Shown here piece after piece: positions 4,720 through 16,898 of a stretch of DNA of 26,561 nt. Positions within the stretch are counted from its first letter, which is position 1. Each line of letters starts with the position of its first letter. The DNA is from a virus. The stretch covers positions 1-26,561 of IMG/VR virus record IMGVR_UViG_3300015360_000170, one strand, 5' to 3'. The notes under the pieces are model-generated. The model made no database searches. It had not been told where the DNA came from and saw only the letters and a list, made by a program, of their open reading frames with translations. The position numbers and the translations under genes are program-made.

Positions 4720-6432
4720 ATGCTATTAGATCAAAAATATAAAGATGGAGTATTGTCTAACTATTACATAGATTCAGATGATAAAGTTAAAGTAAAAACC
4801 ATAAAAGTTGAACCGTACAGATGGATTACCTTAGATGGACCAGATAAATCAGCGTCCAGAACTTACAAATCCTGGAAAAACGAAAGAGTCAAAAAAGTTA
4901 AAGCCAAATCTCTTGATAAGTATACTAAAATGGAAGCACTATGGGAGTTACCTACAGGGCAAAGAGATAGGATATTTAGTCAATGTACACCACTAGAAGC
5001 ATTTGTAGATATAGAAGTAGATTTCGCAAAAGAGTTTCCAAGACCAGAAGAGGTTAAGTTTGGGGTGTCTACTATAGCAACTACTTGGGTTGATAGGAAA
5101 TCAAAGGTTGTGAAGATCATACTTCAAACCTTAAAAGGATTAGATTTAGGAGAAAAATCTTTTATCACAAGAGCAGTAAAAAAATATTTTATAGACTTTA
5201 ATTTAGATTTTGATATAAAATATATTTTTCATCAATCAGAACAGCAGTTATTAGATGTATTCTTTTCTAAAATATGCCCAAAGTTTGGAGTTATCACTGG
5301 ATGGAACTTTGTTGATTTTGACTGGCACTACTTATGGAACAGAGCAATATCTGTTGGGTTAGAGCCTTCAGAATACTTCCCAGATATACATATATCATAC
5401 GACAAAGGATCTAAGGGTGTAGGTTTTCCTTCTAATATTGGAATTATAGACCTAATGGATATATTTACTAAGTTTGATAGATCCATAGATGTTAAAGAAT
5501 CAAAAGCTCTAGAATTTATAGCTAATGAAGTTTTAGGTATAGGTAAAGTATCTCTGAATCAAAGTTTAGATATAGTTTACGAAGAAAATTTCAAAGAATA
5601 TTGCTTTTATAATATTATTGATAGTGTTCTTTGTTTACTGATTGAGGATAAAAAGAAAGTCCTTAAGCTTTACTATGCTCTTTGTAATACATCCTTGTGT
5701 GATATCAGGAATACACTTAAACCTACCAGATCAACAGAAACAGTATTCTCTAATAAATTCTATGAGTCCAACAAAGTTATACCTAGTCCTGGTTGGGACG
5801 AACCTAAAACAAAAAAAGAAACCTACGAAGGTGCTTATGTTATGGTTCCTATAGCTGGAATATACAAATGGGTTATCGCACGAGATTTTCAATCCTTATA
5901 TCCAACATCTGCTAGAATAGGTTCAATATCTCCAGAATCCTATGTAGGTAACTGGTACAAAACCTACCTGACATCAAACTCAATGATGGAAGAACACAAA
6001 GAAGATTACTTAAACTACTGTGTAAGCAGAAGATATATTGAATCAAAATATAGTATCGAAAGTTTATACACCAAAGAAAATGGAGATATTGTTAATGTAA
6101 AAACCAAAGGTATTTATAGTGGACAAGAAGAAGTCCATGGTAATTGGTTTTCAGAATACGTGTCTAGCTTATCAGATAATCTAGAGCACTACAGAGAATA
6201 CCTGACAGACCAGAAAAAAATAAAGAGTGATAAAAAATACTATATCGATCCCAAGGGTTCAGTTTTTGATTTAACTGAAGACCCTGTATACAAGACTATT
6301 TTAGATAAGTTTCACTCAGACAGACAAGACCATAAAAAAGTTAAGAAACTACTAGGCAAAGAAAAAGATAAACTAGAAAAACTTTACATGGAAATACAAG
6401 AACGAAAACTAAATAATAAAACCCGAATATGA
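4720..6432 (+). CDS. 43: Family B DNA polymerase, N-terminal half (3'-5' exonuclease, palm motif A, part of fingers)
   Basis: This 570-residue protein is the front part of a T4 gp43-type replicative polymerase. Exo I is FVDIEVD with D97/E99. Exo II is GWNFVDFDWHY with N196 and D201. Exo III is YNIID with Y297/D301. The proofreading active site therefore looks intact. Motif A of the palm is ARDFQSLYP with metal-ligand D389. Near the end, FHSDRQDHKK (R535, K539) matches the fingers segment that in RB69 polymerase holds R482 and K486, which contact the incoming dNTP. The protein stops about 25 residues later, at the expected tip of the fingers, and lacks motifs B and C. Those are in the separate gene at 11913-13109; together the halves total 968 residues, close to T4 gp43 (about 900). 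The stop overlaps the next gene's start (ATGA). Confidence 0.92.
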   Translation: MLLDQKYKDGVLSNYYIDSDDKVKVKTIKVEPYRWITLDGPDKSASRTYKSWKNERVKKVKAKSLDKYTKMEALWELPTGQRDRIFSQCTPLEAFVDIEVDFAKEFPRPEEVKFGVSTIATTWVDRKSKVVKIILQTLKGLDLGEKSFITRAVKKYFIDFNLDFDIKYIFHQSEQQLLDVFFSKICPKFGVITGWNFVDFDWHYLWNRAISVGLEPSEYFPDIHISYDKGSKGVGFPSNIGIIDLMDIFTKFDRSIDVKESKALEFIANEVLGIGKVSLNQSLDIVYEENFKEYCFYNIIDSVLCLLIEDKKKVLKLYYALCNTSLCDIRNTLKPTRSTETVFSNKFYESNKVIPSPGWDEPKTKKETYEGAYVMVPIAGIYKWVIARDFQSLYPTSARIGSISPESYVGNWYKTYLTSNSMMEEHKEDYLNYCVSRRYIESKYSIESLYTKENGDIVNVKTKGIYSGQEEVHGNWFSEYVSSLSDNLEHYREYLTDQKKIKSDKKYYIDPKGSVFDLTEDPVYKTILDKFHSDRQDHKKVKKLLGKEKDKLEKLYMEIQERKLNNKTRI

Positions 6433-8414
6433 ATTTACCTTTAAGTATTATGTCAGACATCATAACTTACATGAAGTATGCAAATTATGATTTTGATAAA
6501 AAAAGAAAAGAAACATGGGAAGAAATTGTAGACAGAAACAAAGATATGCATCTAAGAAAATTCCCAGAATTAAAAGATGAAATACAAAAACATTATAAGC
6601 TAGTTTATGATAAAAAAGTATTTCCTTCATTAAGAGCTATGCAGTTCGGAGGAAAAGCTATAGAAGCAAACAACATCAGAAGCTATAATTGTTCTTATGC
6701 CCCTTTAGATTCTATTGAAAGTTTCTCTGAAGTACTTTATATTTTATTATGTGGTACAGGTGCAGGTTATTCTGTTCAACCACATCATATAAATCAACTA
6801 CCAGAAGTTCATCAACCACAAGACATCAAAAGTATTTTTGTAGTGGAAGATAGTATAGAGGGCTGGTCTGATTCTATTTTAGCTTTAATGAAATGTTATC
6901 TAGCTAATTCAGTTACTGTTGAAATTTATGATAAAGAAAAAATAGAGAAAATAGGAGAAGACATTTCTTTACTAGGTACAGAAATTGACTCTATTAAAAC
7001 TAAGATAGATTTCGATACAATTAAACCTAAAATTGAATTTGATTATTCAGAAATCAGACCTAAAGGTAGCTTAATCAGATCATCTACGGCTAAGGCTCCA
7101 GGACCAGATGGACTAAGAAAAACTCATGAGAAAATTGTATCAGTACTAGAAAAGAAAAAAACTGGTGACAGATTAACATCTTTAGAGTGCCATGATATAG
7201 TATGTCATATTTCTGATTGTGTTCTTTCTGGTGGAGTTAGAAGGTCTAGTCTAATAGCATTTTTCTCTCCAGAAGACGACTTAATGATGGAATGTAAAAG
7301 TGGTGAGTGGTATATTGATAACCCACAAAGAGGAAACGCTAATAATTCAGCAGTATTCTACAGACCAGAACTAACCAAAGAAAGATTTAATAAATTTTTT
7401 GATGTAGTTGAAGCTTCTGGAGCAGGAGAGCCTGGAATATTTCTAAGTAACGATCCAGATAAAAATGTATTATCTAACCCGTGTGCAGAAATATCTTTAT
7501 ATCCATATCAATTCTGTAATCTATGTGAGATAATATCTAAAGATATAGAATCTAAGGAAGATTTTATAGAAAGAGTTGAAGCTGCGACATTTATTGGTAC
7601 TCTACAAGCAAGTTACACTAATTTCCCTTATCTAAGAGATAAGTGGAGAAAGCAAACTGAAAAGGAAGCCCTTTTAGGTGTTAGTATAACTGGATTAGCA
7701 TCTGGAGACATCAAGACAGAATGGTTGAAAGAAGGAGCAGAAATTAGTGTGAAAGTTAATCAGGACTTAGCTAAAAAAATAGGTATCAACGCATCAGCTA
7801 GAATAACTACAGTAAAGCCTAGTGGTACTAGTAGCTTATTAGCAGGTACTTCTTCTGGTATTCATGCTTGGCATGCACCTTATTATATAAGAAGAATAAC
7901 TGTTTTAGATAATGAGGCTATATATGTTTACCTAAAAGAGAACAACCCAGAATTAATAGAAACTATACACTACAATAATTCTGAAGGTAAATTCTCACAC
8001 ACTAAACATACAATTAACATTCCTATAAAAGCTCCAGAAGGAGCCATATTCAGAGATGAAAATGAGATAGACTTTTTAGAGAGAGTTAAAAATGTAAATC
8101 TAAATTGGATATCTCCTACCTGGAATAAGGGTTTAAATTCTCATAACGTTAGTTGTACTGTCTCAGTTAAGGATTGGGATTCAGTCAGAGAATGGATGTG
8201 GGTTAACAGAGATACGTATACTGGTATAGCATTATTGCCTTACTGGGAAGAAAATACAATGTATCAGCAATTACCACATGAAACCATATCTAAAGAAAAA
8301 TATGAAGAGTTAATCTTGAGTTTATCTGACATAGATTTAACTAAAATTACAGATAACGACTTTAAGAATCTAGAGTTAGAGTTAGCTTGCTCTACAGGAA
8401 ATTGTGAAATATAA
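6429..8414 (+). CDS. nrdJ: Class II (adenosylcobalamin-dependent) ribonucleoside-triphosphate reductase
   Basis: This 661-residue protein looks like a monomeric class II reductase, which converts ribonucleoside triphosphates to deoxynucleotides using a B12-generated thiyl radical. The cysteines follow the Lactobacillus leichmannii enzyme pattern. C88 (SYNCSYAPL) and C363 would form the active-site redox pair. C352 in NPCAEISL would be the radical cysteine, with E354 beside it and C363 eleven residues later. C654 and C659 (CSTGNC, a CX4C) would be the C-terminal reducing pair. The substrate/phosphate segments GGVRRSS and TTVKPSGTSSLLAG are clear. No second subunit or radical-generating protein is needed. 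Enzyme activity would depend on host or environmental cobalamin. The gene starts inside the polymerase stop codon (ATGA overlap), so translational coupling is likely, and it is followed by a GroES gene. Confidence 0.92.
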   Translation: MNLPLSIMSDIITYMKYANYDFDKKRKETWEEIVDRNKDMHLRKFPELKDEIQKHYKLVYDKKVFPSLRAMQFGGKAIEANNIRSYNCSYAPLDSIESFSEVLYILLCGTGAGYSVQPHHINQLPEVHQPQDIKSIFVVEDSIEGWSDSILALMKCYLANSVTVEIYDKEKIEKIGEDISLLGTEIDSIKTKIDFDTIKPKIEFDYSEIRPKGSLIRSSTAKAPGPDGLRKTHEKIVSVLEKKKTGDRLTSLECHDIVCHISDCVLSGGVRRSSLIAFFSPEDDLMMECKSGEWYIDNPQRGNANNSAVFYRPELTKERFNKFFDVVEASGAGEPGIFLSNDPDKNVLSNPCAEISLYPYQFCNLCEIISKDIESKEDFIERVEAATFIGTLQASYTNFPYLRDKWRKQTEKEALLGVSITGLASGDIKTEWLKEGAEISVKVNQDLAKKIGINASARITTVKPSGTSSLLAGTSSGIHAWHAPYYIRRITVLDNEAIYVYLKENNPELIETIHYNNSEGKFSHTKHTINIPIKAPEGAIFRDENEIDFLERVKNVNLNWISPTWNKGLNSHNVSCTVSVKDWDSVREWMWVNRDTYTGIALLPYWEENTMYQQLPHETISKEKYEELILSLSDIDLTKITDNDFKNLELELACSTGNCEI

Positions 8415-8429
8415 ATAAAAAATAAAGAC

Positions 8430-8717
8430 ATGAGTAAGAAAATGATAGAAGGTTTACAACTACTAGATGATAGAATCTTGATAAAGCCTAACCCACACAA
8501 AGAAAAAACAGAATCTGGGATATATATCCCAGATTCTGTTCAAAGAGAAACAGAACAAGGTATGGTGTGTGCTGTAGGAGATTCGGAAGATGTTACTCTT
8601 AAAGAAGGTGATGTTGTTATTTTTAATAAACACTCGGGAGAGGAAATAATAATTAATAATGAAGATTATCTATTAATGAAGGAATTTAATGCTTATGCAA
8701 TAATAATCGAAAACTAA
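8430..8717 (+). CDS. groES: GroES-type co-chaperonin (copy 1)
   Basis: This 95-residue protein matches bacterial GroES from end to end: LLDDRILIKP at the start, the mobile-loop region KTESGIYIPDSVQ, GMVCAVGDSEDVTLKEGD, VVIFNKHSGEE and a closing EYLLM...AYAIII. GroES heptamers cap GroEL. T4-like phages encode a replacement (gp31 in T4) needed to fold the major capsid protein, and TESG also occurs in the gp31 mobile loop. No GroEL gene is present, so the host chaperonin would be the partner. Of the three co-chaperonin-like genes here, this is the most bacterial-looking. Its leader carries TAAAGACATG, shared with two other genes. The mobile-loop codons lie in a perfect 34-base palindrome. The histidine kinase gene begins 3 bases after its stop. 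Confidence 0.92.
   Translation: MSKKMIEGLQLLDDRILIKPNPHKEKTESGIYIPDSVQRETEQGMVCAVGDSEDVTLKEGDVVIFNKHSGEEIIINNEDYLLMKEFNAYAIIIEN
8507..8540. repeat. Perfect 34-base palindrome inside GroES copy 1
   Basis: Bases 8507-8523 read as the exact reverse complement of 8524-8540. The arms contain CAGAATCTGGGATA and the centre is TATATATA. The palindrome covers the codons for the mobile-loop segment TESGIYIPDSV. As RNA it could form a stem of about 15 base pairs; as DNA it could be a dyad protein site. Confidence 0.85.
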
Positions 8718-8719
8718 TA

Positions 8720-9835
8720 ATGAATAATCCAATAAGTAACATGGTTAATACGGATTTTACCTTTGAAGATATATCTAATATCTCAAATCTAATGGGGTTT
8801 GGTGTTATAGTGTATAGTATAAAAGGTAAACCTATATTTATTAACGATTTCGTGTCTACTTATTTGGGTTACTCATCTTTAGTTGATGTTGATAATGTTG
8901 TAGTTATTCCTAAAGAAGAATCTTTTAAGTGTTCTTGTGAAGAATGCGAATTTATACCAAAGATAGTCAGAGGTGATATTAATCATTATACTTTTGATAA
9001 AAAATACAATATTAATGGTAAACAATTATGGGCAAGGGTTACTGCTACTAAAATATCATGGAAAGGCTTAACTCATATTGTAACTATGCTACAAGATATT
9101 ACAGAGGTGAAACTATATCAGGAAAAACTAATCTTAGCTAAAGAAGAAATGGAGGAGTTAATATATTTAACTTCTCATGACCTAAGAGGACCAACAAACT
9201 CTATAAGATCTTTAATTGATATGTTTAATATTGAATACCGAAAAACTATAAAAGATAAAGGTGGAAACGGGATTAAATACTTAGATTTTATATCTAAATC
9301 AGTAAATAGGTCCAAGAATCTAATAGATAATTTACTGGATTATTCTACTACACTTAAAAGTACAGAAGATAAGAAAAAAGAACATATAAACATAAAAAAC
9401 ATCCTAGTTGGCATTTGTGAAGATCTAGAGACATACAATAACGATCATAATTTTGAGATAAAGCTGGAAATAGAAGTTAATGTAATATTTGCACATAAAT
9501 CCGAAATCTATGCTTTATTTCAAAATTTAATATCCAATGCTATTAAATACTCAAAAAAAAACCACAAAAACTTAATAACAATTAAATCTGACATAGAGGG
9601 TGATAATTGGATTTTTCATGTATCTGATACTGGTTTAGGTATTGAAGAAAAATACTTTAATAAAATTTTTCTAGTATTTAAAAGGTTGCACACTAAAGAA
9701 GAAATTGAAGGTACTGGTATAGGGTTAGCACATTGTAAGAAAATATTAGAATTACATAACGGTGAAATTGAGGTTGACTCTGTTTATGGTGAAGGTAGTG
9801 TTTTCAGAGTTACTATACCAATTACAGGAGAATAA
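8720..9835 (+). CDS. Soluble sensor histidine kinase (PAS - HisKA - HATPase)
   Basis: This 371-residue protein contains a complete two-component sensor kinase core. Residues about 25-130 look like a PAS sensor domain ending in the typical ...MLQDITE. A short linker helix leads to the H-box LTSHDLRGP, with phospho-acceptor H153. The catalytic domain has the N-box NLISNAIKYS (N273), G1 SDTGLGI (D303), F-box FLVFKRL and G2 GTGIGL (G331), ending in EVDSVYGEGSVFRVTIPI. No transmembrane segment or signal peptide is seen, so it should be cytoplasmic. The PAS domain carries a cysteine cluster C71-x-C73-x-x-C76, which might bind metal or sense redox state. No response regulator or receiver domain is encoded in the window, so a host regulator or a phage gene elsewhere would be the target. 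It is closely spaced with the GroES genes on both sides and probably co-transcribed. All key catalytic residues look intact. Confidence 0.93.
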   Translation: MNNPISNMVNTDFTFEDISNISNLMGFGVIVYSIKGKPIFINDFVSTYLGYSSLVDVDNVVVIPKEESFKCSCEECEFIPKIVRGDINHYTFDKKYNINGKQLWARVTATKISWKGLTHIVTMLQDITEVKLYQEKLILAKEEMEELIYLTSHDLRGPTNSIRSLIDMFNIEYRKTIKDKGGNGIKYLDFISKSVNRSKNLIDNLLDYSTTLKSTEDKKKEHINIKNILVGICEDLETYNNDHNFEIKLEIEVNVIFAHKSEIYALFQNLISNAIKYSKKNHKNLITIKSDIEGDNWIFHVSDTGLGIEEKYFNKIFLVFKRLHTKEEIEGTGIGLAHCKKILELHNGEIEVDSVYGEGSVFRVTIPITGE

Positions 9836-9852
9836 AAAATAAAAAATAGATA

Positions 9853-10167
9853 ATGAATAATGCAGAAAATGTAACACTAGAATCAATAAAACCTATAGGT
9901 CACAGAGTCCTAATTAAACCTGACCCAGAAAAAGAAGTATACGAAGACTCAGGCTTGATAATCCCAGAGACCCTAAGAAAGATGATGCTAATAGGTACTA
10001 TAATTGCAACTGGTGAAGGTACTAGATCAAGCCCAATGAAAGTTAAAATTGGTGACAGAGTAATTTATCCTAGAGCAGTAAAACAAAAAACTTGGATAAT
10101 TCAGGGTGAAACATACCTATTTTGTATACAGCAAGATTTAATAATGAGAGAGATTAATCAAAAATAA
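9853..10167 (+). CDS. GroES-like co-chaperonin (copy 2)
   Basis: This 104-residue protein has the GroES layout: IKPIGHRVLIKPDPEKE, then a mobile-loop-like EDSGLIIPETLRK, GTIIATGEG, VKIGDRVIYP, a strand pair, and the terminal segment ETYLFCIQQDLIMREI. It diverges clearly from copy 1 in the C-terminal half. Co-chaperonins cap GroEL; different loops would change affinity or client choice. It lies 17 bases after the histidine kinase gene and is the last gene before a strong terminator hairpin, so it closes the operon that begins with the polymerase N-terminal half. The call is firm for family, weaker for function. Confidence 0.85.
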   Translation: MNNAENVTLESIKPIGHRVLIKPDPEKEVYEDSGLIIPETLRKMMLIGTIIATGEGTRSSPMKVKIGDRVIYPRAVKQKTWIIQGETYLFCIQQDLIMREINQK

Positions 10168-10170
10168 ATT

Positions 10171-10213
10171 TAAAAATATCCAAAATTTTATCTTAAAATT
10201 TTGGATATTTTTA
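10171..10213 (+). terminator. Strong 20-bp hairpin after GroES copy 2
   Basis: The arms 10171-10190 and 10194-10213 are perfectly complementary with a 3-base loop (TCT), and the right arm ends in a run of five T. It begins 3 bases after the GroES copy 2 stop codon. The stem is A+T-rich and symmetrical, so it could act in either direction. Confidence 0.85.
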
Positions 10214-10267: not shown

Positions 10268-11044
10268 ATGAAAATATCAGACATAAACATAGTAAAATTT
10301 ATAATCTTCGCTAAAAAGAGTTTAGATATATCGGATGGTGTATTTTTCACTATAGACTTAAAAAATAAAAGGTTTACTGCTTCACCCTACACCAAGACTA
10401 GACAAGTGCTGATGGTAGTTGATGAACCTCTCGATAGTTATTTTAAAACAATAAAAGCAGACAAAGGAGAGGAAATTCCAGATGAAATTAAAATAGGCAT
10501 TTCTTCTGCAACCATAAATAAAGTTCTAGATATTGCAGGTAAAAGCGAAAAACTAAAACTAACAATAAATACTTACGAAGAGGAAAACTTCAAAAATCTA
10601 GCAAGATTAGTTAGATTTTATGATAGTGATTTCAGGATTGAAAAAAAGTGTATACACCCAACCATACCTTTTATTCAGATAGATTCAGACAAGATTAGCT
10701 CCATTATGGACAGTTCTGATTCAGACGCCACATTTACAATTACCAGCAGCACAATAACAAAACTAAAAAGAGATTTCTTTGTTTTAGATGATGTAGTTAA
10801 TTATACTATAGTTACATTTGTTAACCATAAAGGAGAACTACACGTCAAGGGCGAGACTTGGAGTTACAAAATAGATGGGGTTACACTAGACCCCGACATT
10901 GAATTAGACTTTAAGTTTTCAAAATCTTATTTTAACTTTTTAGATAGCAAACCAAACTCTTATGAGTTATCCCTGGTTAATGATAAAATGATAATAAAAG
11001 ATCCAATTACAAATATAGCTTTAGTATTTGCTAGATACTATTAA
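10268..11044 (+). CDS. 45: Probable DNA sliding clamp (T4 gp45-like)
   Basis: This 258-residue protein has no catalytic motif. It shows alternating short strands and a start (MKISDINIVKFIIFAKKSL) resembling gp45 (MKLSKDTTALLKNFATI). The C-terminal part also follows gp45: a GELHVKG strand, a hydrophobic F.F...YFNFL segment, then a NSYELSLVNDKMII strand and a final IALVFARYY. T4 gp45 is 228 residues, so size fits. A clamp ring would tether the split polymerase whose two halves flank this region. No clamp-loader genes (44/62) are in the window. Similarity is weak by eye, so this rests on pattern plus position. It starts a transcription unit behind a terminator and a good promoter match. Confidence 0.55.
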   Translation: MKISDINIVKFIIFAKKSLDISDGVFFTIDLKNKRFTASPYTKTRQVLMVVDEPLDSYFKTIKADKGEEIPDEIKIGISSATINKVLDIAGKSEKLKLTINTYEEENFKNLARLVRFYDSDFRIEKKCIHPTIPFIQIDSDKISSIMDSSDSDATFTITSSTITKLKRDFFVLDDVVNYTIVTFVNHKGELHVKGETWSYKIDGVTLDPDIELDFKFSKSYFNFLDSKPNSYELSLVNDKMIIKDPITNIALVFARYY

Positions 11045-11811: not shown

Positions 11812-11850
11812 TTATATTAGAGTCAGCCTATCTCTACTTAAAGAAAGTCC

Positions 11851-11883
11851 AGAAAACCTATCTAAATTATAGATAGGTTTTCT
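11851..11883 (+). terminator. 13-bp hairpin upstream of polymerase C-terminal half
   Basis: The arms 11851-11863 (AGAAAACCTATCT) and 11871-11883 are perfectly complementary with a 7-base loop, AAATTAT. It sits 40 bases after the zinc-ribbon stop. The run of T is short and inside the right arm, so it could be a terminator or a processing/regulatory hairpin. No promoter match was found between it and the next ATG at 11913. Confidence 0.7.
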
Positions 11884-11912
11884 AGTTATTAATATAAACT
11901 TTAACCCCACTA

Positions 11913-13109
11913 ATGATACACAAAAATGAGCCTTTAACCGAAGAAGAAATAAGCACCTTATCAGAAGAACAAATCCTAGAAAGAATAGATCATATAAATA
12001 TCAGACTAGGTGTAGAGTTTAACACCGAACAAAGTCTTAAATTATGGATGAACTCTTCTTACGGTACTTTCGGATCACCTTTCTTTATACTCAGTAACCC
12101 TAGAGTAGCTGAAGCAATCACATCAACAGGGAAATCCATTATTCTACATACTGAAAAAATAACCAATGATTATTTCATGAATGATTGGCATAAAGATACC
12201 GAGCTACACAAAAATTTAGGTATCACACAAAAAGTTAAACCACTTGAAAATCCTGTAATAGTTTACGCTCATACAGATTCTAATTATTTTAGTTTTGATG
12301 AGCTCTTAACCTCATGTGGTATGGATAAAATGCCAGAAAAAGAAACAAGAGATTTTCTGATTAAATTAGACTCTACTTTTTTATCACCTTTTTATGATAA
12401 GTCCTTTGACGAATTTACTTCCAAAAGAAATCTTAAAAATGACCTAGTATTTGAAACTGAATCTATAGCTAGAAAAATGGTAATTCTAGCAGTAAATATT
12501 AACTTCCAGAATATATCTATGTACGATGGTCAATTCAGCGACTCAGATAAAGTTGTCTTGAAGTACACTGGAGGTAAGATTAAATCCTCAACAACTCCAA
12601 AATTTGCTAGAAATATACTTAAATCATTGTTTGAGATGATTTCTGATCATAGACATGACATTACTATACCAATGCTAACCAAAAAACTTAAAGAGATAAA
12701 AAAAGAAATAATGGTAGTATCTATAGATGAAATAGCAGAAACAGGTAAAATGACAAATTACGAACAATATGTAATAGAGGATAAAGATAACCTTATAACA
12801 AAAAAAGGTACTCCATTTAGAGTATCAGCAGCTGCAAAATACAACCATGCATTATACAAACAAAAAGACTCCGTGAGAAATAGGTATAAACCAATTATTG
12901 ATAGTAAGATAAAAGTTTACTCCACAACAAAAGGTGAATATTTCGCTTATAATCTAGGTGAATATCCTTTGGAGTTTGCACCACCACCAGATAGAGAGGG
13001 GCTATTTGATAAGTTTATACTAAAAACAGTTAATGATATTCTAGAGAGATCCATGAAAGTCTCACCTTTAAGTAGAAGTCTAGTTTATGCTAAACCGTTA
13101 TTTGGTTGA
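11913..13109 (+). CDS. 43: Family B DNA polymerase, C-terminal half (fingers motif B, palm motif C, thumb)
   Basis: This 398-residue protein supplies what the gene at 4720-6432 lacks. Motif B is KLWMNSSYGTFG (K43, N47, Y50, G51). Motif C is YAHTDSNYF with the essential metal ligand D122. SSTPKFARNIL and PFRVSAAAKYNHAL match thumb-region segments of T4/RB69 gp43. The protein begins about 40 residues before motif B, at the opposite side of the fingers tip from where the N-terminal half stops, so the pair would reassemble as one enzyme with a break in an exposed loop. Motif C has His (H120) where family B enzymes normally have the first Asp of DTDS; the second, metal-binding Asp is kept. Split gp43 genes are known in some T4-like phages (for example Aeromonas phage 25). 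It is bracketed by hairpins on both sides. Confidence 0.92.
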   Translation: MIHKNEPLTEEEISTLSEEQILERIDHINIRLGVEFNTEQSLKLWMNSSYGTFGSPFFILSNPRVAEAITSTGKSIILHTEKITNDYFMNDWHKDTELHKNLGITQKVKPLENPVIVYAHTDSNYFSFDELLTSCGMDKMPEKETRDFLIKLDSTFLSPFYDKSFDEFTSKRNLKNDLVFETESIARKMVILAVNINFQNISMYDGQFSDSDKVVLKYTGGKIKSSTTPKFARNILKSLFEMISDHRHDITIPMLTKKLKEIKKEIMVVSIDEIAETGKMTNYEQYVIEDKDNLITKKGTPFRVSAAAKYNHALYKQKDSVRNRYKPIIDSKIKVYSTTKGEYFAYNLGEYPLEFAPPPDREGLFDKFILKTVNDILERSMKVSPLSRSLVYAKPLFG

Positions 13110-13200: not shown

Positions 13201-13623
13201 ATGTTTCAAACTGGTAGCGATTTACCTAACTCAGATGATTCTGAAGATAAACCAGGTATATCAGAAGACACCCAAATCAAAGAGGAATCTTTCGATTATC
13301 TCGATATTAAAATGGAAAGAATATTAGGAATAAAATATTCACTATTAGTTAAGTCAGCAAGATTAGGTATAAATGTTGACCTCATTATTAGAATAGATTA
13401 TTTGTCCATTGATTTTGATTTAATCTTAAACGGAGAATTAGCATGCTCTAATTTTTGTAAGTTACAAAATAACGGAGCTAATGGTGTGGAGTTAAAAATA
13501 AAAGTAGATGAATCTAATTACACCCAACTAAAAGATCCTACTACATTCTATAAAGAACTAATAAATCAAATAACAAAATATTATGAAAATAGAACCAATA
13601 GAAAAAGTCAAACAAGAATATGA
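13201..13623 (+). CDS. Hypothetical acidic protein upstream of GroES copy 3
   Basis: This 140-residue protein is one I do not recognise. The first 30 residues are Asp/Glu/Ser-rich and likely disordered (SDLPNSDDSEDKPGISEDTQ). The rest alternates short hydrophobic strands and helices, with a basic end (YYENRTNRKSQTRI). There are no paired metal ligands, although single Cys residues occur around the motif CSNFCK. Its end overlaps the next gene's start by 41 bases in another frame, suggesting translational coupling with the co-chaperonin. Confidence 0.65.
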   Translation: MFQTGSDLPNSDDSEDKPGISEDTQIKEESFDYLDIKMERILGIKYSLLVKSARLGINVDLIIRIDYLSIDFDLILNGELACSNFCKLQNNGANGVELKIKVDESNYTQLKDPTTFYKELINQITKYYENRTNRKSQTRI

Positions 13624-14011
13624 TGTTTTTGATTCATTTCTAATAGTAAGAGTACAATATCTACCAGCAGAACTTAGAACCGAGTCTGGACTTATCTTAG
13701 GCTTTAATAATACCCCAGCAGAAAAAACTATATATTTTGGTGGAGTAATTATAGCTGTAGGTGATGCTGTGGTTAACAAAAAACTTAAGTTAGGTATGAG
13801 AGTTTTAGTTAAAGCATTTTCTGGTCAGAAAGTATATCATCTAGGTGATGAAAACGCTGATAATGACTATGTTAGGTTTGATGAATCTGACATAGCAGCA
13901 GTAATGGATCAGACTGTTGATCTAACACCAATCAAGAACTTCACATTGATTGATAGAGAAGCATTAAAATTAAAAAATCCTAACTTTCCTATAAATAATA
14001 TAACATTATAA
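13583..14011 (+). CDS. GroES-like co-chaperonin (copy 3, extended)
   Basis: This 142-residue protein is longer than GroES (about 97) and T4 gp31 (111). Residues about 15-65 read as a co-chaperonin: FLIVRVQYL, a mobile-loop-like RTESGLILGFNNTPAEK, then GGVIIAVGDAV and LKLGMRVLVKAF. TESGL is also the T4 gp31 loop motif. The C-terminal 50 residues (after DNDYVRFDESDIAAVM) extend beyond the family and are unassigned. No internal Met before the conserved part offers a later start, so the 41-base overlap with the upstream gene is probably real. It lies 4 bases before uvsX. This copy looks closest in style to phage gp31-type proteins; the family call is good but divergence is high. Confidence 0.75.
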   Translation: MKIEPIEKVKQEYDVFDSFLIVRVQYLPAELRTESGLILGFNNTPAEKTIYFGGVIIAVGDAVVNKKLKLGMRVLVKAFSGQKVYHLGDENADNDYVRFDESDIAAVMDQTVDLTPIKNFTLIDREALKLKNPNFPINNITL

Positions 14012-14015
14012 AGAC

Positions 14016-15224
14016 ATGGCAAAAATACAAGAGATAACAACATTTGAAGATTTAGTGGAGTTTCAAAGAAAATTAAATCCTAATTCAGACAGAATGGATT
14101 TATCTACTTATTCAGATGTAGAAGGATATATTCATACTGGTAGTTACATACTAAATGCCTGTATATCTGGTAGATTAACAGGAGGGATACCTCTGAACAA
14201 GATAGTAGCATTCGCTGGGGATTCTCAGACAGGTAAAACCCTAAGTTGTTTGAATATAGCTAGGTCTGCACAAAAAATGGGATATAATGTTGTGTATTAT
14301 GATACTGAAAATGCAGTTACAGAGGACACGATGACAGCATTTGGTGTTGATCCTAAAAGAGTATTATACAATCCTATATCTGTAGTTGAGGACTTAAAGC
14401 ATAATCTAGTTCAGATGTTAAACGCATTAATGGAAACTAAAAAGGCAGGAAAAGAAGTACCTAAACTTTTAATAGTTATAGATAGTTTAAGTCAACTAGG
14501 TACTTTGAAGTCTGAAGTGGATGCTGATTCAGGTAAAAATATCACCGATATGACTAGAGCTAAAGCAATCAAGAATATGTTTCAGCTTATTACTAACAAG
14601 ATTGGTTACTTAAAATACCCTATGATTTTCACTAATCATACTTACGAAAATATTGGTGGATTTCTTAAAGCACACGAGAAAATAAAAATTACTGGTGGTA
14701 AAGCTATTGAGTATACTGCATCCGTTATAATTCACTATTCCAGGACTCAATTAGATGTGGATAAAGGTAAATCAGAAAAAACAGGTATTACTGTTATAGC
14801 ACAACCTCTTAAAAATAGATTGGTTAAACCTATGAGAGTCAGCTATCAGATCCCATGGAACAGGGCAATAAACCCCTTTATCGGGCTAGAGCAATTTATT
14901 GAGATTTCAGACGCTAAGTTAGCTGCAGAGATCTGGGAAAAGGTTGGTTTAGGTAGAGGTACTATGAAAACCAATAAAAATGGTGATATTGAGTTTGCAT
15001 TTAAACCTAAATCTACCACTTGGGCTGTAAGACATCTTGATGAAAATGTCAAAAGGTCAGAAGCATCAAGAATATTTAGTGAAGAAATCTTTACTTCAGA
15101 AGTAATAAAAAATTTAGATGAGTTCGTTTACAGAGAGTTTGCATATTCTAATAGTAATATGGATTCAGATTATATAGATGATCTAAATTCTATGTTATCT
15201 TCAGATAACGAAGAAATTTACTAG
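14016..15224 (+). CDS. uvsX: UvsX-type RecA/Rad51 recombinase
   Basis: This 402-residue protein matches T4 UvsX (391) in length and layout. Walker A is GDSQTGKT (K74, T75). Walker B is LLIVIDSLSQL (D156). The conserved DMTRAKAIKNMFQLIT segment follows, then the NHTYE motif and a GGKAIEYTASVI stretch. The end is acidic (DSDYIDDLNSMLSSDNEE), like the regulatory tail of UvsX. UvsX polymerises on single-stranded DNA and drives strand exchange and recombination-dependent replication; its usual partners UvsY and gp32 are not in this window. The leader carries TAAAGACATG, the same start context as two other genes here. A terminator follows directly, so this is the last gene of its unit. Confidence 0.95.
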   Translation: MAKIQEITTFEDLVEFQRKLNPNSDRMDLSTYSDVEGYIHTGSYILNACISGRLTGGIPLNKIVAFAGDSQTGKTLSCLNIARSAQKMGYNVVYYDTENAVTEDTMTAFGVDPKRVLYNPISVVEDLKHNLVQMLNALMETKKAGKEVPKLLIVIDSLSQLGTLKSEVDADSGKNITDMTRAKAIKNMFQLITNKIGYLKYPMIFTNHTYENIGGFLKAHEKIKITGGKAIEYTASVIIHYSRTQLDVDKGKSEKTGITVIAQPLKNRLVKPMRVSYQIPWNRAINPFIGLEQFIEISDAKLAAEIWEKVGLGRGTMKTNKNGDIEFAFKPKSTTWAVRHLDENVKRSEASRIFSEEIFTSEVIKNLDEFVYREFAYSNSNMDSDYIDDLNSMLSSDNEEIY

Positions 15225-15578: not shown

Positions 15579-16898
15579 ATGGATTTAGAATATCATGAAG
15601 AACATGAAAAAATGTTCATAAATTACTTAAAAAAGAAACCAGATTATTTCCAATACATAAACCCTGAATTTTTTGAGTCAGAAAGCTTAGATGACTTATA
15701 CAGTATAATTCGTGACCATCATCAAAGTTTTAAAATGTACCCTACTTCTGATGAACTAAGAATAAAACTAAAAGGTAATCAATACGATCATATACCCTCG
15801 TCTTATTCGGATATTATATCTCAAGTAGGTAACTATTCAGATGAATATGCAGAAGAAGAACTTCAAAAGTGGATTAAATACAGAACTCTAAAGCTTAATG
15901 TAATTAAAGCTGCAGATTTCTTACAAGGACAGAAATATACTGGAGCAGACCCAGACTATTTACAATCTAAAATTAGAGAGATGTTTTTGATGTCTCCAGA
16001 TTTCTCAAATGATTTAGGTTTAGATTTTTACAAGGCAGAAGACCATGAAATATTCTACGAAGATAAGATAGCTTCTGGGTATCAGTTTTATGATAAACTT
16101 AGTGGTGGAGGTTATGATGCACAGACACTAGTGATATATGTTGGACCACCTAATACTGGTAAATCAATATTTCTAGCTAACGAAGCTAGAAGGTTTATAG
16201 AACAAGGGAAAAACGTCTTGTTTATATCTGCAGAAATGTCGGCAAAAAAATGTATTAAAAGAATCGGTGCTATGACTTTAGGTATACCTTTAGCTGACTA
16301 TGACATAAAGTCAAAAGATGTTGATTTTATGCAGAAAAAAATAGCAGACTTTAAGTATGGTGGTGTAGTTGATCCAGGAATACTGAAAATAATAAAAGTA
16401 CCCACATCTAAATGTAGTTGTAATGACATAGAAGCAATTATTAAAAGACTAGAGGAAAAAGAAGGTATAAAGTTTGATTGCTTGGTTGTAGATTATATTA
16501 ATATATTAGCTGATGATAAAAATAAATCATCGGACAATAGTTATACTAAGATAAAAAATATATCTGAGGATTTAAGAGCTATTGCTGATATTTATGATAT
16601 GCTGGTAGTAACTGCCACTCAAACTAGAAGAGATGGATTTAACTCAGAAGATATAACTATGGAACATATAGCAGAATCAGCAGCTTTATCACATACTGCA
16701 GATGTTATCTGGGCTATAATTCAAACAACAGAAATGTACGCAAATTCATATTTTAAACTGAAGTTGATAAAAACTAGAGACACTGAAGGTAAACATACAA
16801 AAAATAAAATAAGAATTGACGGTGCTACTTTAAGATTAGAAGAAGAGTCAAACTCTGATGAAAATGATATAAGTGATTACTACGATCTAAATAACTAA
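15579..16898 (+). CDS. 41: Replicative DNA helicase, DnaB/T4 gp41 type
   Basis: This 439-residue protein has a RecA-like motor in the second half. Walker A is VGPPNTGKS (K195, S196). The H1a-like segment VLFISAEMSAKK carries the expected Glu. Walker B is CLVVDYINIL (D305). H3 is VVTATQTRRDG, and the IKTRD...KIRI segment near the end fits the arginine-finger region. Residues 1-150 form the smaller N-terminal domain. T4 gp41 is 475 residues. It would form a hexameric 5'-3' helicase that unwinds the fork and recruits primase; no primase gene (61) is seen in this window. The C-terminal 20 residues are acidic. It follows the small ORF by 11 bases and is followed by an unknown gene after 10. Confidence 0.93.
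   Translation: MDLEYHEEHEKMFINYLKKKPDYFQYINPEFFESESLDDLYSIIRDHHQSFKMYPTSDELRIKLKGNQYDHIPSSYSDIISQVGNYSDEYAEEELQKWIKYRTLKLNVIKAADFLQGQKYTGADPDYLQSKIREMFLMSPDFSNDLGLDFYKAEDHEIFYEDKIASGYQFYDKLSGGGYDAQTLVIYVGPPNTGKSIFLANEARRFIEQGKNVLFISAEMSAKKCIKRIGAMTLGIPLADYDIKSKDVDFMQKKIADFKYGGVVDPGILKIIKVPTSKCSCNDIEAIIKRLEEKEGIKFDCLVVDYINILADDKNKSSDNSYTKIKNISEDLRAIADIYDMLVVTATQTRRDGFNSEDITMEHIAESAALSHTADVIWAIIQTTEMYANSYFKLKLIKTRDTEGKHTKNKIRIDGATLRLEEESNSDENDISDYYDLNN

Follow-up and report, generated by a model that had tools for sequence, protein, structure and literature searches.

A complete soluble histidine kinase encoded within the replication gene block of a large phage

The presence of a complete sensor kinase among the replication genes of a large phage raises the question of what such an enzyme would do there and to which partner it would pass its signal. 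The gene concerned (8720..9835, plus strand) lies in the IMG/VR record IMGVR_UViG_3300015360_000170, the whole of which was analysed and is referred to here as the window; at 26,561 bases it is a partial genome of a bigger virus. Judged from its gene content, this virus belongs to a large T4-like, jumbo-like phage lineage, the window gene set including a split family-B DNA polymerase, UvsX, a DnaB-like helicase, SbcD/SbcC-like proteins, a late-sigma-like gene and a head-closure/TnsA-like gene. The enzyme that the gene encodes is of a known kind; what is unusual is its place.

The open reading frame, Pfam, PDB sequence matches and the predicted fold agree on a soluble PAS-HisKA-HATPase_c histidine kinase of 371 amino acids. 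Specifically, its motifs are SHDLRGP at residue 152, which contains the phospho-acceptor H153 (codon 9176-9178), NLISNAIKYS at 269 (N-box, 9524-9538), DTGLG at 303 (G1 box, 9626-9640), FKRLH at 320 and GTGIGLA at 331 (G2 box, 9710-9727), all placed by motif position on the plus strand. The N, G1, F and G2 boxes are intact, and the H-box reads S152-H153-D154, with an acidic residue directly after the histidine. In alignments with cellular homologues H153, N269, N273, D303, G305, G307, G333 and L336 are invariant. The HATPase_c (CA) domain (residues 221-368; 9380..9823, plus strand) is matched by Pfam at E 2e-23 (83 bits against a cut-off of 26.4), and AlphaFold2 predicts it with a pLDDT mostly above 90, and of 90-96 over much of its length. 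The signalling helix and DHp domain (residues 128-213; 9101..9358, plus strand) are predicted as helices 128-179 and 183-213, with a pLDDT of 75-83 in the DHp. The HisKA match (E 6e-5, 23.5 bits) falls under the curated Pfam cut-off of 26.9, which is a database threshold rather than a property of the enzyme, and despite this score the DHp hairpin is seen both in the predicted fold and in close homologues. Moreover, phmmer aligned the DHp and CA domains with histidine kinases of solved structure (E 2e-26), and Foldseek matched the predicted model to soluble LOV/PAS histidine kinases over approximately its full length and to HK853 and ZraS over the core. The top 19-residue hydropathy is only 1.13, so the protein is taken to have no membrane segment. 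The first-pass annotation, which had proposed a complete soluble histidine kinase with H153 and the N, G1 and G2 boxes intact, is thus borne out. The kinase step is well supported by the motifs and the predicted fold; that the protein is expressed and phosphorylates is presumed.

The weakest element of this annotation is the PAS assignment, which had earlier been described as intact and can be kept as putative. A sensor domain at residues ~25-129 (8792..9106, plus strand) is suggested by a Pfam PAS_9 match to residues 28-129 and by the later beta strands (89-126), which are well predicted by AlphaFold2. However, the profile match (E 1e-3) reaches 19.8 bits against a cut-off of 27, and residues 1-77 have a pLDDT below 50, so that the assignment depends on a weak match together with the better-predicted later strands. 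The same region contains a cysteine cluster, C71-x-C73-x-x-C76 (window 8930-8947), and a Nitrospirota homologue (L349) has C-x-x-C at the aligned position, which hints at metal or redox sensing; the redox idea has the cluster C71/C73/C76 as its sole basis.

As regards output, the phosphatase activity of HisKA proteins requires T or N at position H+4 (PMC3510030). In the window kinase this residue is G157, and T or N is likewise absent from nearly all relatives examined. With glycine at this position, a kinase output without strong phosphatase activity is predicted.

The kinase had also been placed inside a phage replication operon and between co-chaperonins, and both observations hold. Upstream lie the N-terminal half of DNA polymerase B (polN; 4720..6432; phrog_262 E 3e-60, Pfam exo1), a ribonucleotide reductase (RNR; 6429..8414; phrog_367 E 3e-116; 48% to that of Microcystis phage Mel-JY01) and a GroES-like co-chaperonin (groES1; 8430..8717; Cpn10 E 3e-21), and directly downstream lies a second one (groES2; 9853..10167; Cpn10 E 6e-16; about 33-36% to groES1), all on the plus strand. 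These genes form a tight run, with polN and RNR overlapping by 4 bases and spacings of 15 bases between RNR and groES1, 2 between groES1 and the kinase and 17 between the kinase and groES2. The run ends at a strong 20-bp hairpin followed by T-rich sequence (10171..10213, plus strand; folding energy -18.4 kcal/mol, z -8.1), which is likely to be the end of the transcription unit. Beyond it, on the same strand, are g9 (10268..11044), a gene that is clamp-like by position only (25% tblastn match to the gene directly 5' of polC in contig L003), the C-terminal half of the polymerase (polC; 11913..13109; phrog_1918 E 2e-50), a UvsX-like recombinase (14016..15224; phrog_97 E 8e-59) and a DnaB-like replicative helicase (15579..16898; phrog_19 E 3e-73). 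A third GroES-like gene (13583-14011; 28% identical to groES1) brings the number of such genes to three inside 5.6 kb, and no GroEL was found in the window. On the minus strand, two long near-perfect inverted repeats of 16 pairs each (8506-8541, inside groES1, and 11849-11885) received terminator-like scores.

The 462 kb phage LR756500 is a syntenic relative of the window. The order polN ... g9 - polC - UvsX - DnaB - g19 - sbcD - sbcC - g25 - sigma - TnsA-like is common, whole or mostly, to the window, LR756500 and contig L003, and ~150 further loci keep parts of it. Across the lineage DNA polymerase B is encoded by two separate genes with variable cargo between them (window 4720-6432 and 11913-13109; L111:3054-18174). 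It is within this variable polN-polC interval that the kinase sits. In LR756500 the ribonucleotide reductase found in this interval is split in an intein-like manner and nuclease-like ORFs are inserted; in L003 the interval is short.

The host was considered from the gene starts, since genes of Bacteroidota are expected to have A-rich leaders without a Shine-Dalgarno sequence. In the window, 27 of 28 starts are preceded by A-rich leaders in which no Shine-Dalgarno-like 4-mer occurs (a raw count, with no AT-matched control); this fits a Bacteroidota host, which we presume. Enrichment of the Bacteroidota promoter motif in the window was not significant (8 of 100 shuffles reach the observed level), and the promoter scan of the window found 54 against 59.6 expected.

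The catalytic core of the kinase is closest to cellular Bacteroidota kinases (40-43% over the core, in a search of 395 Bacteroidota genomes), and the closest of these have the GIGLAHCKKI box in common with it. In 84,980 species genomes a rare-peptide scan picked up eight relatives, at 35-38% identity for the best, and no near-identical copy; the best identity in any sampled genome was 43%. In a maximum-likelihood tree the window kinase, on a long branch of 1.55 changes per column, groups with Bacteroidota kinases without a resolved order among them, and eleven viral kinases form a separate, weakly supported (81/86) group that does not include it. The comparison of the kinase core with cellular kinases that had been suggested recovers a kinship with Bacteroidota kinases but leaves the nearest kin unsettled. 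The shared box and the tree placement fit an old acquisition from a Bacteroidota-like cell; the lack of a near copy in the sampled genomes suggests that this acquisition is old and established, and codon use and GC3 like those of neighbouring phage genes suggest long residence in the phage. A recent host fragment was rejected on the identity of 43% at best and the missing near copy, both in the genomes sampled, and on the codon use.

Among the sampled relatives of the phage the gene stands by itself. A single-protein scan of viral contigs with the window kinase found no relative (an eight-sequence kinase alignment was discarded as a scan query, being too diverse), and tblastn at E 1e-3 found no histidine kinase relative at its place in polC-lineage loci. 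HATPase_c matches occur in 8 of 50 lineage records; two of these (G462 and G502) are of histidine kinase type, of a different subfamily and elsewhere in the genome, and the remainder are weaker (E 2e-8 to 9e-7) and lie in frames of 597-788 aa. As no sampled relative has the kinase, conservation gives no argument for function. The first-pass annotation had held that a recent host fragment, present in a single isolate and not conserved in relatives, would weaken a functional role; the latter half of this describes what we found, the former does not. We did not use the isolate-phage collection to estimate the frequency of phage kinases, because many of its kinase matches are in records flagged as unverified or in contigs that are clearly bacterial. 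Counts over the IMG/VR kinase contigs are likewise rough, as some of these contigs may be pieces of prophages or of cellular genomes (L140, L144 and L147 are from isolate-type records). No description of phage histidine kinases of the window type was found in the literature searched. The sole PADLOC match was weak and to a generic ATPase (E 3e-7), and no defence role is therefore claimed.

To which receiver, then, would the phosphate pass? A receiver domain was sought with PF00072 and with a custom profile built from 15 sequences, and none was found in the 26.6-kb window; a complete two-component system, in the sense of a kinase with its cognate receiver nearby, is thus not present there. However, a stand-alone receiver of 125-170 aa adjoins or overlaps the homologue in 7 of the 11 Bacteroidota neighbourhoods read (L338, L340, L341, L342, L344, L346 and L347), and the same holds for the Nitrospirota homologue L349. 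Furthermore, 12 of 14 other viral histidine kinase records of the broad class have a receiver at most 2.5 kb from the kinase. Taken together, these neighbourhoods and the empty window make a host stand-alone receiver the most likely partner.

We propose that the product of the window gene is a cytosolic sensor kinase that is dimeric and active. Its N-terminal PAS domain would receive a small-molecule or redox input, the coiled-coil helix would relay this to the DHp domain, and H153 would there be phosphorylated with ATP. The phosphate would then most likely move to a stand-alone, CheY-like receiver of the host, similar to those with which the closest Bacteroidota relatives are paired. The outcome would be a shift in host physiology at the stage of infection, early or middle, at which the genes for nucleotide synthesis and replication are expressed. 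This is our leading explanation, held tentatively and at a little short of even confidence; partner, signal and effect on infection are presumed in it, and a function of the kinase for the phage is plausible. If the kinase does signal, it would mean that a large phage equipped for its own replication steers or reads the two-component signalling of its host by a complete enzyme and not just an inhibitor. Such a kinase, apart from its receiver, would also serve as a test case.

The main rival, which we consider rather unlikely while taking it seriously, is that the receiver is encoded by the phage itself in the rest of the genome, giving a split two-component system of its own, perhaps acting on late or lysis functions. 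As the window is a fragment, such a gene may lie outside it; the viral records with a nearby receiver argue in the same direction, as do the lineage relatives G462 and G502, which have a cassette of histidine kinase, receiver and membrane protein beside their lysins. Yet the kinases of G462 and G502 are of a different DHp subfamily (RHDMHSG as against SHDLRGP), and the stand-alone receiver-like protein of LR756500 (L152:2660-3013) is degenerate, the usual phospho-Asp reading Asn (DVILMNI). A receiver over the PF00072 cut-off was present in just 1 of 50 lineage records, in a search that missed the divergent receivers of the lysis cassettes. Less probable again is a decoy that would bind or mis-dimerise with host kinases, or drain phosphate, and so block a host response with no signal of its own. 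The lack of a partner in the window would suit it, and host two-component systems are reportedly affected by the phage protein PIT4 (PMC10714779), but all the catalytic residues, unneeded by a decoy, are kept. Least probable of all is the chance pick-up of a host gene without function for the phage, since its restriction to one contig, with none in any sampled relative, is countered by the intact frame and motifs, neighbour-like codon use, the absence of a near-identical copy from the rare-peptide scan and a place in a tight gene run without spare DNA.

The cassette deserves description in its own right. In G462, G502 and G026 a histidine kinase of the RHDMHSG type is accompanied by a receiver of 143-145 aa and by a protein that combines a coiled coil with two membrane segments (sites L351:3837-8712, L352:6446-10609 and L353:4436-8179; loci L355-L434). 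It adjoins a GH19/peptidoglycan-binding endolysin in all three, an M15-peptidase endolysin too in G462 and G502, and a Pam3 gp28 family holin in G502. The membrane protein is encoded at no fewer than 355 loci in IMG/VR. Among the best 80 of these at least 355 loci, kinase and receiver are both present in 76, and one or more of the endolysin/holin lysis genes in 47 (fetched flanks of up to 5 kb). The membrane protein matched none of 50,697 isolate phage records, and no description of the cassette was found in the literature searched. The cassette is widespread in phages and more novel than the window kinase. From gene neighbourhood only, we hypothesise that it may provide two-component control of lysis timing, and the larger question is whether phages time lysis through two-component signalling. 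We think it quite improbable that the window kinase is the free sensor arm of a similar, split system of the phage, in which metabolic or redox state would be reported from the nucleotide and replication block and a receiver encoded by the phage would in turn control lysis or other late events, much as the cassettes in related phages may do. A second type in other phage contigs combines a PAS/GAF kinase, a CheY-like receiver and a second receiver protein with a coiled coil and a membrane segment, or those parts as a separate small protein (L142:1947-4402, L146:6542-12059, L150:8919-11274, L350:4871-11016, L109:5071-8161 and L139:9290-12766); in L146 it adjoins an M23/GH19 endolysin.

Among known systems, the Bacteroidota PAS/HisKA kinases with SHDLQEP...GIGLAHCKKI (for example L338, L341, L342 and L346) resemble the window kinase in the 40-43% identical DHp and CA core, the AHCKKI box and the lack of T or N at H+4. 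However, their sensor part varies, and hydrophobic, membrane-like segments occur in several of them and an adjacent receiver in most, whereas the window kinase is solitary. The LOV/PAS kinases YF1 (4gcz) and SB2F1 (8a6x) share its domain order and soluble build, and Foldseek aligns them with almost all of it (E 4e-19 to 5e-21), but at 16-17% identity; a flavin is not indicated for the putative window sensor, which has the cysteines C71, C73 and C76. The phage kinase-receiver modules of Microcoleus phage My-WqHQDG and of IMG/VR contigs L139, L141-L143, L146, L150 and L350 are, like the window kinase, phage-borne and of the broad SHDLQEP class, but their receiver is directly adjacent, and most fall in a weakly supported tree group apart from it. 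Finally, the phage kinase families PHROG 857 and PHROG 10912 match it by kinase-core profile (E 5e-35 and 4e-33), the match to PHROG 857, a family listed in PHROGs as of unknown function, being limited to the catalytic core.
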